A stretch of 37,944 bases of DNA, taken from NCBI GenBank assembly GCA_013792075.1, contig VMSR01000190.1, positions 1 through 37,944 on the forward strand. The letters run 5' to 3'. Positions 10,216-37,604 of this stretch are shown piece by piece. The DNA comes from Desulfobacula sp. Lineage in GTDB: Bacteria; Desulfobacterota; Desulfobacteria; Desulfobacterales; Desulfobacteraceae. The position numbers and the translations under genes were made by a program. The notes below the pieces were generated by a model. It saw nothing but the letters and a program-made list of their open reading frames with translations. It made no database searches and had not been told where the DNA came from. The number at the start of each line of letters is the position of its first letter. Positions within the stretch are counted from its first letter, which is position 1.

Positions 10216-12129
10216 GTGGAAAATATTATTTTAGGAACCGCCGGTCATATCGATCATGGCAAGACGAGCCTGGTAAAGGCATTGACCGGTGTGGAAACCG
10301 ACCGGCTCAAGGAAGAAAAAGAAAGGGGGATCACCATAGAGCTTGGCTTTGCCTCCCTTGATCTTCCCGACGGGAGGCACATCGGAATTGTGGACATGCC
10401 CGGCCATGAAAAATTTGTCAAAAACATGGTGGCCGGCTCCAGCGGCATTGATGTTGTGACTATGGTCATTGCAGCAGACGAAGGCGTGATGCCCCAGACC
10501 CGGGAACACATGGAGATCTGCAATCTCATGGGAATCCGGCACGGCATCATCGCCCTGACCAAGACAGACCTTGTGGACGAAGACCTCCTGGAACTGGCCC
10601 TTGACGACATCAACGATTTTGTCCAGGGCACCTTTCTGGAAGGCAAACCCATCATTCCCCTCTCTTCTGCAACAGGCCAGGGCCTGGACAAATTTATTGC
10701 CACCCTTGAATCTGTTTGCAACGAAATACCGGAACGAAAATTTTCTTCTATTTTCCGGTTGCCCGTGGACCGGGTCTTTTCCATGAAAGGGTTTGGCACT
10801 GTGATCACCGGGACCCTGACATCCGGCGTCATCCACGTGGGCGATGATATCATGGTTTATCCCAAACGAATCGTTTCCAAGGTCAGGGGTATCCAGGTTC
10901 ACAGCAACAGTGTGGACAGTGCCCCGGCCGGCACAAGGACTGCCATCAACTTCCAGGGACTTGACAAGGACACTGTTTTCAGAGGAGATATTCTCTCCAC
11001 GCCCGACACCCTCATTGAAAGCTATATGGTGGATGCCCGGTTTCATTATTTGAAAAGCAATGCCAAACCTGCCAAACCCAGAACCCGGGTTCGGTTTCAT
11101 TCGGGTACCAGTGAAATCCTGGGGTATATGGTTCTTCTGGACCGGGAAGAATTGTTGCCCGGAGACGAGGCACCGGTTCAATTTCGCCTGGAGTCCCCTG
11201 TCTGCTGCATCAAGGACGACCGCTACGTGATCCGAAGTTATTCGCCTGTAAAAACCATTGGCGGCGGGGCCATCCTGAACCCGGTTTCCCAGAAGCACAA
11301 ATTGTTTGACAAAAAAGTGATTCAGGGCCTGGATGAACTCCTGCTGGAGGACGGTGAACAGACCATATCCTTTTTTCTGTCTTTAAAAGGATTTCTGGGG
11401 CTTTCCCTGAACCAATTGCGGGTCATGACCAACATCCCGGATAAACGGCTGGCCACAACCCTGCAAAAGATGCTGGCCAAACAGGCCATCGTCCAGACGG
11501 ACAAAGAACGGCAGATCTATGTCAACGGGGCCATTTTTGATGAATTCAAGGAAAAAGTCCTTAAGAAAATTGCCGCCTACCATGCTGCCAATCCCTTAAA
11601 AGAAGGCATGCCCACCCAGGAACTCAAATCCAAGTTCCGGTATATTGAGGATGCCAAATTTTTTAATATTCTGTTTGCCAAACTGGCCAGGGAAAACATC
11701 ATTGCCCAGGACAAAAACATTGTAAAACTTGTTGATTTTAAAGTTGCCCTCAAGGTGGACCAGCACGAAGTCAAAGAAAAAATCACCCAAATATACCAGA
11801 CTGCGGGCTTAACCCCCCCGTTTTTCAGAACCATCTGCCAGGACCTGAACCTGGACCAGAAAACAGCCAAAGATGTGCTTCAGATCCTTTTTGATGAACG
11901 CGTGCTTGTAAAAGCCAAAGATGACTTAAATTTTGATGCCCGGGCAATTGCCGGCCTTGAGGAGAAGATCATTGCCCATTTAAAAGAAAAGGAAACCATC
12001 ACCACCCCGGAGTTCAAAGATATGATCGGGATTTCGAGAAAATTTGTGATCCCCCTGATCGAATATTTTGATTCCACCAACCTGACCATCCGGGTGGGAG
12101 ATACCCGCCACCTGAGAAGAAAAATTTAG
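10216..12129 (+). CDS. selB: Selenocysteine-specific translation elongation factor
   Basis: SelB brings selenocysteyl-tRNA to the ribosome at UGA codons marked by a SECIS hairpin. The 637-residue product has the EF-Tu-like GTPase: G1 GHIDHGKT (10-17), the RGITIELGFA region, G3 DMPGH (60-64) and G4 TKTD (115-118). Two beta-barrel domains and a long C-terminal half of winged-helix domains, which read the SECIS, follow. The RGITIELGFA sequence and the winged-helix tail separate SelB from EF-Tu. It starts with GTG, with GGAGGGG upstream. Its TAG overlaps the stop of the convergent hemW gene. A UGA-interrupted HesB gene at 35024-35341 is a likely user of this factor. No selA, selC or selD is visible in the window. 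Confidence 0.96.
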   Translation: MENIILGTAGHIDHGKTSLVKALTGVETDRLKEEKERGITIELGFASLDLPDGRHIGIVDMPGHEKFVKNMVAGSSGIDVVTMVIAADEGVMPQTREHMEICNLMGIRHGIIALTKTDLVDEDLLELALDDINDFVQGTFLEGKPIIPLSSATGQGLDKFIATLESVCNEIPERKFSSIFRLPVDRVFSMKGFGTVITGTLTSGVIHVGDDIMVYPKRIVSKVRGIQVHSNSVDSAPAGTRTAINFQGLDKDTVFRGDILSTPDTLIESYMVDARFHYLKSNAKPAKPRTRVRFHSGTSEILGYMVLLDREELLPGDEAPVQFRLESPVCCIKDDRYVIRSYSPVKTIGGGAILNPVSQKHKLFDKKVIQGLDELLLEDGEQTISFFLSLKGFLGLSLNQLRVMTNIPDKRLATTLQKMLAKQAIVQTDKERQIYVNGAIFDEFKEKVLKKIAAYHAANPLKEGMPTQELKSKFRYIEDAKFFNILFAKLARENIIAQDKNIVKLVDFKVALKVDQHEVKEKITQIYQTAGLTPPFFRTICQDLNLDQKTAKDVLQILFDERVLVKAKDDLNFDARAIAGLEEKIIAHLKEKETITTPEFKDMIGISRKFVIPLIEYFDSTNLTIRVGDTRHLRRKI

Positions 12130-33090: not shown

Positions 33091-33963
33091 CTATTCCTTT
33101 GGTTTTTTTTCTTCGGGTAATTTTTTGTCATCCTTTTTTTCACCGGTCTCTTTTTCTGCCGCCTTTCCAGCACTCATGGTATGTTCAATGATAAATTCTT
33201 CCACCTTATCAATGGTGTTGGAAATAATCACATGCTCAATATCGATATCCTTGACAAAGCCTTCCATATAAGGATTCAGCACATCCACCAATTTTGCTTT
33301 CTGGATCTTGATCTGGTCAAAATCTTTTACATCTTCAAAAACAAGGGAACTTAAAAAAATAATGGCCGCTTCCCGGGCCTTGGGATGCATAACAGGAATG
33401 ACCTGATCCGGCATCAACTCTTTGAGCCTCATGCTCATATTCAAACACAGATATCGATCCGGGGCACTTGAACTATTCTTGTTCAGGTTCACGACAAGGG
33501 GTTTGATTGGAACGACCACTGCCGTGTCGATTTCAATATCCCCTGGTTTCTTGCTGCTGGTTTTTTTCCATTCTCCAACCCGGCCATTTTCCTCCTTGAG
33601 CAACATGACCCGGGGTCCCAGCTCAACAATTTCAAAAAAACTGGTGTCATTTTTTTCCCAAATTTCTTCAATGCTTGACGTTATTACGGTGAATATCAAT
33701 TGTTTGCCTTCCATGTGCCAGGACCCCTGGGCATCTCCTTTGGATTTCACAATTTTCGAGGTGGCATCGGCAATTCGGACCGAGGAATTCCAACTGCCGG
33801 TGGAAGATATGACCAAAAGGATATAAGCCCGGTTCCGGTATTGGGTCCAGTTGCCCAACACCAGGTCTTCATCGCCTTTTTCCTTTTCACCGCAGGCACT
33901 TAAAGAAAAAACCATGAACAAAACAAAAAATACCCAGGAAATCGTACAAAGGGGTCGGGTCAT
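33091..33963 (-). CDS. Lipoprotein with FliL-like C-terminal domain
   Basis: About 290 residues from the ATG at 33963, which has AGGA 8 bases upstream. A signal peptide ends in the lipobox FSLSAC, so Cys24 is probably lipidated and the protein exported. Residues about 30-135 (LGNWTQYRNRAYILLVISST) form a lipocalin-like or unknown beta domain. Residues about 153-250 (IKPLVVNLNKN, RYLCLNMSMRL, REAAIIFLSSLVFEDV, KLVDVLNPY) resemble the periplasmic domain of the flagellar stator protein FliL. The end is a charged Lys/Glu tail. No flagellar gene is nearby and FliL itself is normally anchored by a membrane helix, so the role is open. The FliL likeness is from memory. Confidence 0.8.
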   Translation of the reverse strand: MTRPLCTISWVFFVLFMVFSLSACGEKEKGDEDLVLGNWTQYRNRAYILLVISSTGSWNSSVRIADATSKIVKSKGDAQGSWHMEGKQLIFTVITSSIEEIWEKNDTSFFEIVELGPRVMLLKEENGRVGEWKKTSSKKPGDIEIDTAVVVPIKPLVVNLNKNSSSAPDRYLCLNMSMRLKELMPDQVIPVMHPKAREAAIIFLSSLVFEDVKDFDQIKIQKAKLVDVLNPYMEGFVKDIDIEHVIISNTIDKVEEFIIEHTMSAGKAAEKETGEKKDDKKLPEEKKPKE

Positions 33964-34055
33964 AACAGAATCCTGATTTAAAAAGTTTGCTGACATATTT
34001 TTTTTACGCTACCATGGCAAAAAATTCCGGTCAACCCAGGGGACATCTTAAATTA

Positions 34056-34114: not shown

Positions 34115-34945
34115 ATGCTCATTAACACATTCAGCCACATTCCGGGTATTGGACCGTCAACAGAAAAAAAACTATGGAATGACGGCATCCGTACCTGGGC
34201 GGATGCCCTCCAAAAGCCTGGGGCTGCCGGCAAAAAAGCGTTTGCCGTTCAAAAGGGAATCCATACCTCCATGGACCACCTGGAAAAAAAAGATGCGAAA
34301 TTTTTTGAAGACCTTCTGCCGGCGAGCCAGCATTTCCGGTTTTTCCCTGAATTCAGGGGATCTTGCGCTTTTCTGGACATTGAAACCACAGGCCTTTCAA
34401 TCGGATCAACCATCACGACCATTGCCCTTTACGATGGTTCCACCATCCGCTACTATGTCCAGGGTAAAAATCTTGGCAATTTCATAAAGGACATCCAACA
34501 ATACCAGGTCCTTGTCACCTATAACGGCAAAACATTTGATCTGCCCTTTATCCAGGAATATTTTAATTGCCGACTGCCCCATGCCCATATTGATCTGAGA
34601 TATATTCTGAAAAGTCTCGGAATTGGAGGGGGGCTCAAAAAATGCGAAAAAACCCTGGGAATTGACCGCGGAGAACTGGATGGGGTGGACGGTTATTTTG
34701 CCGTGCTTCTGTGGAAAGAATACCAAAAAACCAAGAATCCCAAAGCCCTTGACACCCTTCTTGCCTATAATATCGAAGATGTGATCAACCTTGAAACCCT
34801 TATGATCAAAGCCTATAATCTGAAAATAAAAGAAACTTGTTTTTCAGATACCCATGTCATACGTGAGTCTCCCAAGGCCCTGAACCCCCTGAGGGCCGAT
34901 GCACACCTCATCAAACAACTAAAAGCCCTTTATTCAGAATGGTAA
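34115..34945 (+). CDS. HhH-containing DEDD 3'-5' exonuclease-like protein (YprB type)
   Basis: This 276-residue protein begins with a helix-hairpin-helix (IPGIGPSTEKKLWNDGI, about 9-25), suggesting DNA binding. It continues with an RNase H-like exonuclease domain: AFLDIETTG (Asp88, Glu90), TYNGKTFDLPFI (Asp142) and AYNIEDVINLE (Asp222). These are the DEDD metal ligands of the YprB/RNase_H_2 group. The substrate is probably single-stranded DNA or RNA ends; the physiological role is unknown. AAGGA precedes the start. A perfect palindrome lies 26 bases after its stop. Confidence 0.9.
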   Translation: MLINTFSHIPGIGPSTEKKLWNDGIRTWADALQKPGAAGKKAFAVQKGIHTSMDHLEKKDAKFFEDLLPASQHFRFFPEFRGSCAFLDIETTGLSIGSTITTIALYDGSTIRYYVQGKNLGNFIKDIQQYQVLVTYNGKTFDLPFIQEYFNCRLPHAHIDLRYILKSLGIGGGLKKCEKTLGIDRGELDGVDGYFAVLLWKEYQKTKNPKALDTLLAYNIEDVINLETLMIKAYNLKIKETCFSDTHVIRESPKALNPLRADAHLIKQLKALYSEW

Positions 34946-34970
34946 GGCTTTTTCTTTTCCACATATAATA

Positions 34971-35000
34971 AAGGTGTCCCGGCAATTGCCGGGACACCTT
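34971..35000. terminator. Bidirectional hairpin terminator between convergent genes
   Basis: A perfect 30-base palindrome (aaggtgtcccggcaa and its complement) lies between the exonuclease gene and the convergent HesB gene. Neither side has a long T-run (TATTAT on the minus side), so it is a strong stem with weak tails. Confidence 0.65.
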
Positions 35001-35023: not shown

Positions 35024-35341
35024 TCAGTCGCCGCATGAACCGCCGGAACCGCAGCTTCCGCACCCGGACTCTCCCAGGTCCATATTGGAATCAAGATGAA
35101 ATCCCATCCCGGTAAAGTCGATTTTGATAACTTCGGCTTTTTCCATAAATTCTTTGTCAACAACAAATTTAAGCCCTTTAACATCAAAGGAATTATCTGT
35201 ATCTTTTGGCTCGTCCAGAGCCATAGCAAGAGATGGGCCGCCTCAGCCACCGGAATTGAGAAAAATTCTTATGGGCGTCGGTTCTTTCCCTTGAAAATAG
35301 TCATCGATCTGCGTTTTGGCAGGATCTGTCAAGTCAATCAT
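35024..35341 (-). CDS. HesB/IscA-like selenoprotein with in-frame UGA (Sec33)
   Basis: Two frames separated by one TGA (35245-35243) together make a 105-residue A-type Fe-S carrier-like protein. It starts MIDLTDPAKTQIDDYFQGKE and reads FLNSGGUGGPSLAMALDEP across the UGA. The UGA falls exactly where IscA/HesB proteins have the first conserved Cys in their GGC-G-P-L-LD motif, and the tail carries further Cys (SGCGSCGSGGSCGD). HesB-like selenoproteins are known in delta-proteobacteria, and selB is in this window. I chose the ATG at 35341, which has AAGGAG upstream; the frame is open to 35434. A small hairpin about 20 bases after the UGA could be the SECIS. A pseudogene is the alternative, made unlikely by the intact frame and motif on both sides. 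It probably carries an Fe-S cluster or binds redox-active metal. Confidence 0.88.
35208..35222 (-). promoter_or_regulatory. Candidate SECIS hairpin of the HesB-like selenoprotein
   Basis: On the minus strand the sequence ggctctggacgagcc folds into a 5-bp perfect stem with a UGGAC loop. The stem starts 21 bases after the UGA, so the loop lies about 26-30 bases downstream, in the window where bacterial SECIS loops are found. The loop holds GG, as bacterial SECIS loops often do. The rest of the stem-loop could extend to either side. Confidence 0.45.
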
Positions 35342-35475
35342 TTTATAACTCTCCTTATCGGTTATTTGTTCAGGTTTATTATTCCTGAATGCTTTAATTC
35401 TAACCATGTCCTTTCTTCCTGTCAATGTTATCAAGGTTGTTTTTCCCTAAATTTTACACTTTCCCCCCTAAATGA

Positions 35476-35514: not shown

Positions 35515-36579
35515 ATGAAATTCTCCGTCCCCTTTATACCCGATAAGGCCTATATCAGATTCCTCACGGAAAAAATCTCTTTTTTGGAATCCGTATATTT
35601 TGGACTCCATTCAGGTCCGGTCCTGGATTCAAGAATTCGATTCACACAGATGGATCTTTCTTCCCTTGGCAAAAGCCTGATTTCCATGGAGGGAATAAAA
35701 AAATATTGTTTGCTTAACACCCGGTTTATACGGCCGGATCTGTATACAGATACCCATTTTTTAAACCAACTACTGGACAGTCTTAAGTTTCTCCATGACA
35801 AATGCCATATCAATGGCATTGTGGTGTCTGATTTTTACATGCTCAATGCCCTTGATAGGACAGGGCATGATATGGTTCCAAATTTGGAAGCCATCCCCGG
35901 AATCAACTGCATGATGGATTCTTCCCAAAAGATAGTTTCCCATATGGAAATGATTGAAAACACCCGATTCATGATGCCTGAAAAACTGGTACTTGACCGG
36001 TCCTTGAACCGGGACCCTGAAAAACTGAACAACATGATTCTCTGTATCAAATCCCTTTATCCCCATATAAAAATCGAATTGCTGGCCAATGAAGGCTGTA
36101 TTTACCATTGCCCCTTTAAACCGGCCCATGATGCCCAAATTTCCCTGTCCAACACCGGTATGGTAAAGGAAAACACCCATGCCGTTAATCGGGCAGCCGG
36201 TTGCCATGCCTATTTCCATCAGCACCCTGAAAAATTTTTCAAATCCCCCTTTATCCGACCCGAAGATGTGATCCATTATCAAGGGGTGGCCGACTCTCTT
36301 AAACTCTGCGGCAGAACCCTTGGTCCTGGTTTTTTGACCCGCTGCATCACTGCCTATTGCAAGAACGACCATGACGGAAATCTCCTTGAGCTGATGGATG
36401 CCACCCATTTTCTCGCTTCTTTTTTCCATCTGGACAACCGGCAACTGGGGGAGGGGTTCTTTAAAAAAATAACAACCTGTACAAAGGTCTGTAAAAATTG
36501 TAGCATCTGCCATGATCTTTTTTTAAACGCAGTCGAAAAAAAATCCATCACACTCAAACCCTATGGGAAAGACCAATGA
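35515..36579 (+). CDS. U32-like TIM-barrel protein, cysteine-rich, probable Fe-S
   Basis: This 354-residue protein resembles peptidase U32/UbiU-like TIM-barrel proteins. It has early barrel strands (ESVYFGLHSGPV, GIVVSDFYMLN), ELLANEGCIYHCPFKPAHDA (Cys195, Cys199), a later Cys230 and SPFIRPEDVIHYQGVADSLK with Cys265 (LKLCGRTLG). The tail holds four Cys within 11 residues (CTKVCKNCSIC, 322-332). UbiU/UbiV-type members hold an Fe-S cluster through such Cys; whether this one does is inference. It overlaps galE by 4 bases (ATGA), so the two are co-translated. No specific reaction can be assigned. Confidence 0.75.
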   Translation: MKFSVPFIPDKAYIRFLTEKISFLESVYFGLHSGPVLDSRIRFTQMDLSSLGKSLISMEGIKKYCLLNTRFIRPDLYTDTHFLNQLLDSLKFLHDKCHINGIVVSDFYMLNALDRTGHDMVPNLEAIPGINCMMDSSQKIVSHMEMIENTRFMMPEKLVLDRSLNRDPEKLNNMILCIKSLYPHIKIELLANEGCIYHCPFKPAHDAQISLSNTGMVKENTHAVNRAAGCHAYFHQHPEKFFKSPFIRPEDVIHYQGVADSLKLCGRTLGPGFLTRCITAYCKNDHDGNLLELMDATHFLASFFHLDNRQLGEGFFKKITTCTKVCKNCSICHDLFLNAVEKKSITLKPYGKDQ

Positions 36580-37604
36580 AAATACTTGTGACGGGTGGTG
36601 CCGGATACATCGGTAGCCACACCTGTGTTGAGCTGTTGAAAGACAATTACGATGTCGTGGTATTGGACAATTTTTCCAATAGCTGTCAAGAAGCCTTGAA
36701 CCGGATTCAAAGGCTGGCCAACAAAAAATTGTCCTTTTACAAGGCGGATCTGCTCGAAAGCCCCAGCGTTCGCCAGGTATTTAAAGACCATAAAATAGAC
36801 GCCGTCATCCATTTTGCAGGCCTGAAGGCCGTGGGAGAATCAACCTGCATCCCCCTGAAATATTACCACAACAATCTCACCGGCACCTTCAACCTGCTTT
36901 CGATAATGGGCGAGTTCAATGTAAAAACCCTTGTTTTTTCATCGTCTGCAACGGTTTATGGAGACCCGTCCACCCTTCCCATCACAGAAACATTCCCCCT
37001 TTCTGCCACAAACCCCTATGGCAGGACAAAACTGATGATCGAAGAAATTCTCCAGGATCTTCATACATCGGACAAGGACTGGAACATCGCGCTTCTGCGA
37101 TATTTTAATCCCGTGGGCGCCCATGAAAGCGGAGAATTAGGAGAAGATCCCCAGGGGCTGCCGAACAATCTTATGCCCTACATCTCCCAGGTTGCTGTGG
37201 GGCGTCTTCCCCGGCTCAGCGTCTTTGGGGCAGATTACGATACACCCGACGGAACAGGCGTTCGGGATTATATCCATGTGACGGATCTGGCACTGGGCCA
37301 TATCCGAACCCTTCCCAAACTGGCCGAAAAACCCGGGGTTGTCATCTACAATCTTGGAACCGGCAACGGATTCTCCGTACTTGAAATGATAAACGGATTT
37401 GAAAAGGCCAGCGGCCAAAAAATTGCCTATCAGGTAACAGACAGGAGGCCCGGCGATATTGCCGCCTGTTTTGCAGATGCCTCAAAAGCCAAAAGAGAAC
37501 TCAACTGGGAAGCCGGAAAATCTTTGGATGACATGTGCAAGGACACTTGGAACTGGCAGAAAAAAAACCCCATTGGGTATCGAACCCAGCCCAAGGAGGA
37601 ATAA
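36576..37604 (+). CDS. galE: UDP-glucose 4-epimerase
   Basis: This 342-residue extended SDR enzyme interconverts UDP-glucose and UDP-galactose. It has the NAD-binding TGGAGYIGSH (6-15), FSSSATVYGD with the catalytic Ser and Thr, and NPYGRTKLMIEE with Tyr148 and Lys152. LLRYFNPVGAHESGELGEDP and GVRDYIHVTDLALGH are further GalE signatures. It probably supplies UDP-galactose for LPS sugars, though it is separated from the LPS operon by several unrelated genes. The start overlaps the U32-like stop. Confidence 0.95.
   Translation: MKILVTGGAGYIGSHTCVELLKDNYDVVVLDNFSNSCQEALNRIQRLANKKLSFYKADLLESPSVRQVFKDHKIDAVIHFAGLKAVGESTCIPLKYYHNNLTGTFNLLSIMGEFNVKTLVFSSSATVYGDPSTLPITETFPLSATNPYGRTKLMIEEILQDLHTSDKDWNIALLRYFNPVGAHESGELGEDPQGLPNNLMPYISQVAVGRLPRLSVFGADYDTPDGTGVRDYIHVTDLALGHIRTLPKLAEKPGVVIYNLGTGNGFSVLEMINGFEKASGQKIAYQVTDRRPGDIAACFADASKAKRELNWEAGKSLDDMCKDTWNWQKKNPIGYRTQPKEE

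Follow-up and report, generated by a model that had tools for sequence, protein, structure and literature searches.

HesB-like selenoproteins are an established family whose function has stayed dark. Table 1 of one survey lists 11 members, with several deltaproteobacterial hosts in its Table 3, and the legend of its Figure 4 describes a Cys form in which a SECIS-like structure survives as a remnant (PMC1794560); Table 3 of another counts 90 HesB-like selenoproteins in 86 organisms (PMC5029168). A 2026 review gives the motif of the family as UxGP and its model as TIGR01911, and describes the functions of most selenoproteins as not clear (PMC13188914). In Methanococcus maripaludis a HesB-like selenoprotein was identified by mutagenesis and 75Se labelling; its function is described as not clear, and a disruption mutant still fixed nitrogen according to an unpublished observation cited in the same article (PMC11097638). 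A table entry elsewhere gives the function of this M. maripaludis protein as unknown, with iron/sulfur cluster assembly added as a question (PMC2933860). SECIS elements of archaea are described as lying in the 3' UTR, whereas the bacterial element is a hairpin shortly past the UGA with a small, G-containing apical loop (PMC1088965).

Here we report a gene of this family from Desulfobacula sp. (Desulfobacterales, Desulfobacteraceae; assembly GCA_013792075.1), found on a stretch of 37,944 nucleotides of contig VMSR01000190.1 that is referred to below as the window. Bacteria of this kind live as strict anaerobes, most of them by reducing sulfate. Family membership, exchange of selenocysteine (Sec) and Cys, SECIS conservation and the Sec machinery of the genome all indicate, from sequence data, that this HesB-like gene with its internal UGA almost certainly encodes a selenoprotein. 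The gene is an added member of the established HesB-like family, not a new kind, and shares with it the NF038090 model, the UxGP motif, Sec/Cys exchange and a bacterial SECIS; it belongs to the NF038090 branch and scores below the cut-off of TIGR01911, the model that the review gives (PMC13188914). To the M. maripaludis protein it can be likened by description rather than by sequence, both being selenoproteins of the HesB-like type, but that protein is archaeal and the archaeal SECIS is placed in the 3' UTR, whereas here the element lies inside the coding region. What the gene adds to a known but functionally dark family is a well-supported case with a clean SECIS signal, in which four- and six-fold degenerate codons are frozen just at the hairpin and the signal is incomplete in Cys paralogues, even in neighbouring copies.

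The gene and its reading frame

The features of the gene are as follows.

35024..35341, minus strand: gene of 105 codons and a terminal TGA, predicted to encode a HesB/IscA-like selenoprotein; passes NF038090 and PF01521 on read-through
35243..35245, minus strand: in-frame TGA, predicted selenocysteine at residue 33; TGA in 82 of 85 loci matched by a motif regular expression, Cys in the other 3
35351..35356, minus strand: ribosome-binding site AAGGAG, read directly from the sequence
34970..34998, minus strand: probable intrinsic terminator 3' of the gene, a hairpin and T-run (inverted repeat, then TTT), read directly

An earlier note on this DNA had placed the TGA in frame with the open frames on both of its sides, and direct reading agreed; under the ordinary code, no ORF of at least 100 aa is listed on this frame. 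The same note began the gene at TTG 35434, which we consider less likely than ATG 35341-35339. The latter was taken as the start because the alignment to NF038090, the best-scoring profile, begins at its Met (residue 32 of the TTG frame) and because AAGGAG (35356-35351) lies just upstream, giving a product of 105 aa. Shine-Dalgarno-like strings, any one of four loosely defined ones and counted without a chance control, occur in 81 of 85 loci. Some close relatives are similar upstream of ATG 35341 too, with tblastn matches that begin at residues 1-4 of the TTG 35434 frame, and these might reflect a longer N-terminus than that of the ATG product. The frame ends on a second TGA (35026-35024), and 25 nt past it, in the window gene to which this reading was confined, is a strong terminator-like hairpin.

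Exchange of selenocysteine and cysteine at the UGA codon

The 88 loci scanned comprised L001 and L002, 30 loci from an order-wide scan and 56 from a tblastn search of genome contigs, and the nearest named ones in sequence are from Desulfobacteraceae, Desulfobacula and Desulfotignum assemblies. The motif expression matched 85 of these, with TGA at the U33 codon in 82 and Cys in 3. It missed L025, L029 and L099, of which the first two were read afterwards, L029 being a Cys form, and the last, at 37% identity, was left out. Another 20 loci were selected on the ground that their listing showed no stop; together with L002, the first copy of L025, L029, L031 and L098 they make 25 loci without TGA (24 distinct, as L098 and L103 share identical protein and codons), and Cys occupies the U33 site in all 25, including L113 and L115, which were placed by eye and both lack GP. 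Over the order as a whole the scan gave at least 150 matches, and by hand count 135 of 150 were listed with exactly one TGA and 15 with none. The earlier note had considered that orthologues might carry a true stop or a frameshift at this site; in every locus read we instead found TGA or Cys, and the frameshift seen in L074 is downstream of the UGA. Terminal stops varied freely among the 82 UGA-form rows (TGA 40, TAA 29, TAG 13), as expected of an ordinary stop.

Codon differences tell the same about both parts of the frame. In an ungapped comparison with 31 close relatives there were 328 synonymous and 78 non-synonymous differences before the UGA, and 548 synonymous and 194 non-synonymous after it; the latter counts indicate that the 3' part is translated, and, judged from the codons, the gene is under purifying selection on both sides of the UGA.

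Both forms of the gene can be found in one genome. One relative has a Cys form and a UGA form in tandem (L025:1400-2100), and the Desulfobacula genome itself encodes a Cys paralogue (L002; G000 C96:29296-29634) with 46% identity and an NF038090 score of 102 bits.

The SECIS element

35208..35222, minus strand: predicted SECIS hairpin, stem GGCUC/GAGCC around UGGAC, an apical loop with a conserved G; pairs and synonymous sites conserved

The first base of the hairpin, GGCTCTGGACGAGCC (35222-35208, minus strand), is the 21st after the UGA, a spacing of 20 nt. This is where the earlier note had drawn it, and its proposed role is backed by conservation at synonymous sites. Of 80 unique UGA windows, 75 had standard pairing at all five positions of the GGCUC/GAGCC stem and 78 at the inner three, around a UGGAY loop (UGGAU in 72, UGGAC in 8). 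Scoring used a single fixed register, and two of the windows are duplicated, that of L024 and that of L048 each recurring in one other locus. When the 3' strand was shifted by 1-3 bases, the paired fraction fell from 393/400 to 0.04-0.51. Across 81 unique genes the codons of the hairpin are nearly invariant, with GCT for Ala+8 in 80/80, CTG for Leu+9 in 81/81 and GAG for Glu+11 in 79/81, whereas those beside it vary, Leu-5 and Leu+5 using six codons each and Gly+2 four. Some two-fold codons elsewhere are biased (Lys+13 is AAA in 70/73), and no further frozen four- or six-fold codons were found outside the hairpin in the stretch examined. Because the sequences are related, the counts do not represent independent events, but it is within the same genes that the hairpin codons contrast with their neighbours.

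Among the 23 Cys homologues scored (22 distinct, L113 and L115 lying outside the scoring) none had the complete five-pair hairpin, the maximum being four pairs. Hairpin codons were kept in part of them (GCT in 8/23, CTG in 11/23), which may reflect remnants, ancestry or codon bias, and the same could explain part of the conservation. In the tandem locus L025 the Cys copy reads GCC CTC GAT GAT and the UGA copy GCT CTG GAC GAG, so that the hairpin codons are complete in the UGA copy only. The folding stability of the UGA-hairpin region was no better than that of shuffles (z from -0.13 to -0.57 in four cuts); as these values are unremarkable, folding energy was left out of the evidence and the case for a real hairpin was built on conservation. 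With a hairpin soon after the UGA and a small apical loop containing G, the gene fits the description of the bacterial element and, by comparative sequence evidence, carries a bacterial SECIS.

A Cys form at L098:3001-3309 retains four of the five hairpin pairs, and may have exchanged Sec for Cys recently, its SECIS persisting as a remnant.

That the gene is a pseudogene or the product of a sequencing error, the TGA being a true degenerate stop in front of a decaying 3' part, would agree with the lack of a listed ordinary-code ORF of at least 100 aa on the frame, but the 82 of 85 genes, drawn from many assemblies, that have TGA at this very codon, the 548 synonymous against 194 non-synonymous differences after it in 31 relatives, and the frozen hairpin codons make this reading practically untenable.

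Selenocysteine machinery

10216..12129, plus strand: selB, selenocysteine-specific elongation factor; TIGR00475 347.7 bits, cut-off 242.25; SelB winged-helix domains

The selB gene that had been noticed in the window is present, and the remainder of the machinery was found in the genome, which measures 5.3 Mb, with completeness of 98.9% and contamination of 4.96%. SelA scored 613.6 bits (cut-off 267.9) and SelD 369 bits (cut-off 125), and one tRNA-Sec exceeded the gathering score (76.9 against 47); the tRNA-Sec model gave weaker matches in all 14 control genomes and matches over the score in 5. The earlier note would have taken a genome missing selA, selD and selC as evidence against selenocysteine; selA, selD and the tRNA-Sec were all recovered, and with SelA, SelB, SelD and tRNA-Sec above their cut-offs the host is equipped to decode Sec. 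Of the 291 genomes of the order that were sampled, 275 have a selA match (270 over cut-off). For at least six genomes (G062, G106, G108, G159, G248 and G278) a UGA-form match is listed but selA went unmatched; all of them are less than 90% complete.

The selD gene of the Desulfobacula genome (L012; G000 C238:23605-24528) has one internal, in-frame TGA, and SelD itself is probably a selenoprotein.

Since read-through alone says nothing about which residue is inserted, the UGA might instead be read through by suppression, or by a genome-wide recoding to Cys, Trp or Gly. Nine of the 28 long ORFs picked in the window end in TGA, however, and on that basis TGA is an ordinary stop in this genome; moreover, Cys is the exchange partner in every non-TGA locus read, the complete hairpin accompanies the UGA form, and the full Sec machinery is encoded. 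Together these make read-through with a residue other than Sec very improbable.

Family membership and fold

The earlier note had joined the two frames into a protein resembling A-type Fe-S carriers, and profile searches concur: the read-through protein passes NF038090 (IscA_HesB_Se; 115.3 bits, cut-off 85) and PF01521 (29.7 bits, gathering score 26.3). A PF01521 scan of the Desulfobacula genome gave no match at E 0.001; as the gene thus escapes detection by PF01521 on its own, scans relied on NF038090 and TIGR00049. The read-through protein scored below the cut-offs of TIGR01911 (HesB_rel_seleno; 33.7 vs 66.35 bits), TIGR00049 (39.7 vs 58.8), TIGR02011 (29.6 vs 150.6), TIGR01997 (30.4 vs 136.2) and the ErpA model (23.7 vs 117).

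A profile built from 54 relatives matched five PDB sequences, two of which are Aquifex AQ_1857 and E. coli IscA; U33 aligned with the Cys in the GCSG motif of IscA. The placing of U at the first Cys of the A-type motif by the earlier note thus held; the motif as it was written, GGC-G-P-L-LD, did not, the actual residues being GGU-GGPSLAMALDE, which is UxGP. The fold predicted by AlphaFold2 (pLDDT 80.9) matches IscA and SufA structures, the top match by TM being E. coli IscA 1s98 (0.69 by query length). Residues 91-102, which include two of the three C-terminal Cys, have pLDDT below 50, and for this reason the model does not establish a cluster geometry. C94, C97 and C103 are each at least 90% conserved in alignment A1 (54 rows, made up of L029 and 53 of the 84 rows listed, with the frameshifted L074 excluded) and form the pattern CxxC...C. 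In canonical A-type carriers three Cys serve as ligands, of which the last two form a CxC, and the C-terminus of E. coli IscA reads ECGCG. The protein described here therefore shares with IscA, SufA and ErpA the fold and the position of the first Cys, and differs from them in having Sec for that Cys, CxxC...C for CxC, and scores below the cut-offs of their models.

Predicted mechanism and function

In the mechanism that we propose, SelB loaded with Sec-tRNA would bind the hairpin just behind the UGA and insert selenocysteine at residue 33, and the second, terminal UGA, often TAA or TAG in relatives, would end the protein. Sec33 might then bind iron or an Fe-S cluster together with C94, C97 and C103, or might act as a selenol in thiol chemistry. 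As a carrier the protein would take clusters from NifU/IscU-type scaffolds and deliver them to client enzymes; no canonical A-type carrier was found in this organism. We put the chances that this selenoprotein is an Fe-S carrier at about even. A putative effect of having Sec in place of a cluster-ligand Cys is a change in redox behaviour, which is plausible.

Nearly as likely, at somewhat less than an even chance, is that the selenoprotein is no Fe-S carrier, and that Sec33 provides a redox or metal-binding selenol for another job; this is a functional variant of the selenoprotein reading, and its odds are not additional to it. Redox functions are thought likely for most uncharacterised prokaryotic selenoproteins in the review mentioned above (PMC13188914), and the C-terminal Cys pattern unlike that of IscA, the lack of linkage to Fe-S genes and the score under the TIGR00049 cut-off would all suit such a role. 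The A-type fold, the retained position of the first Cys and the three conserved C-terminal Cys argue for the carrier instead, as does the count of 0/291 genomes of the order with a protein over the TIGR00049 cut-off that could be a substitute carrier.

A-type proteins across the order

NF038090 has matches in 253 of the 291 sampled genomes of the order, over the cut-off in 246. The order-wide search for canonical carriers used TIGR00049 alone, which was over its cut-off in none of the 291 genomes, compared with 8 of 14 control genomes; sub-threshold TIGR00049 matches occurred in 219 of the 291, and in the Desulfobacula genome these are exactly the UGA gene and the Cys paralogue on C96. The NF038090 family may be the main A-type protein of the order, and the order-wide pattern is possibly new. 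If that pattern is what it seems, most members of the order lack an A-type protein above cut-off outside this mostly selenium-containing family, and the reason for an Fe-S carrier to use selenium becomes testable in named relatives such as Desulfospira joergensenii. Among the papers listed in literature searches on Sec-containing A-type, IscA or HesB proteins, which covered few subscription journals, none, judged by title and abstract opening, claimed order-wide replacement.

A-type carriers have been reported as absent in many Delta-Proteobacteria (PMC2682760). Truncation of genes at the UGA may have contributed to such absences, and the PF01521 scan of the Desulfobacula genome likewise found nothing. 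A bolder reading is that the mostly Sec-containing HesB-like family has replaced canonical A-type carriers in the order, that Fe-S delivery there has become largely dependent on selenium, and that the reported absences are partly an artefact of cutting genes at the UGA. We regard this replacement as unlikely; against it, some genomes, that of Desulfobacula included, also encode a Cys paralogue that passes NF038090.

A search of the Desulfobacula genome for Fe-S assembly genes found none of the SufB/SufD core family and five NifU_N matches, which suggests assembly of the NIF/ISC type rather than the SUF type.

Gene neighbourhood

The HesB-like gene converges with a gene for an RNase_H_2 protein (34115-34945), and two frames diverge from it, the first (35515-36579) an ORF that matches no Pfam family and the second (36576-37604) an epimerase gene. 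When flanking frames of the 82 UGA-form loci, whose flanks are of unequal length, were clustered, no conserved neighbour was found that ties the gene to Fe-S assembly or another function. The neighbours that recur, mostly in close relatives, are the epimerase, a lipoprotein with a FliL domain and the ORF without a Pfam family.

The latter ORF (35515-36579, plus strand) encodes 354 aa, has no Pfam match at E 0.001 and shares 4 bases with the start of the epimerase gene; members of its family are present in 22 of the 82 clustered UGA-form loci. The lipoprotein-like protein with the FliL domain (PF03748) is encoded at 33091-33996 (minus strand), near the HesB-like gene and on the same strand, and in 27 of the 82 clustered loci a member of its family is encoded downstream of the UGA-form gene. 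In L029 a protein that looks similar by eye is encoded directly behind the Cys form.
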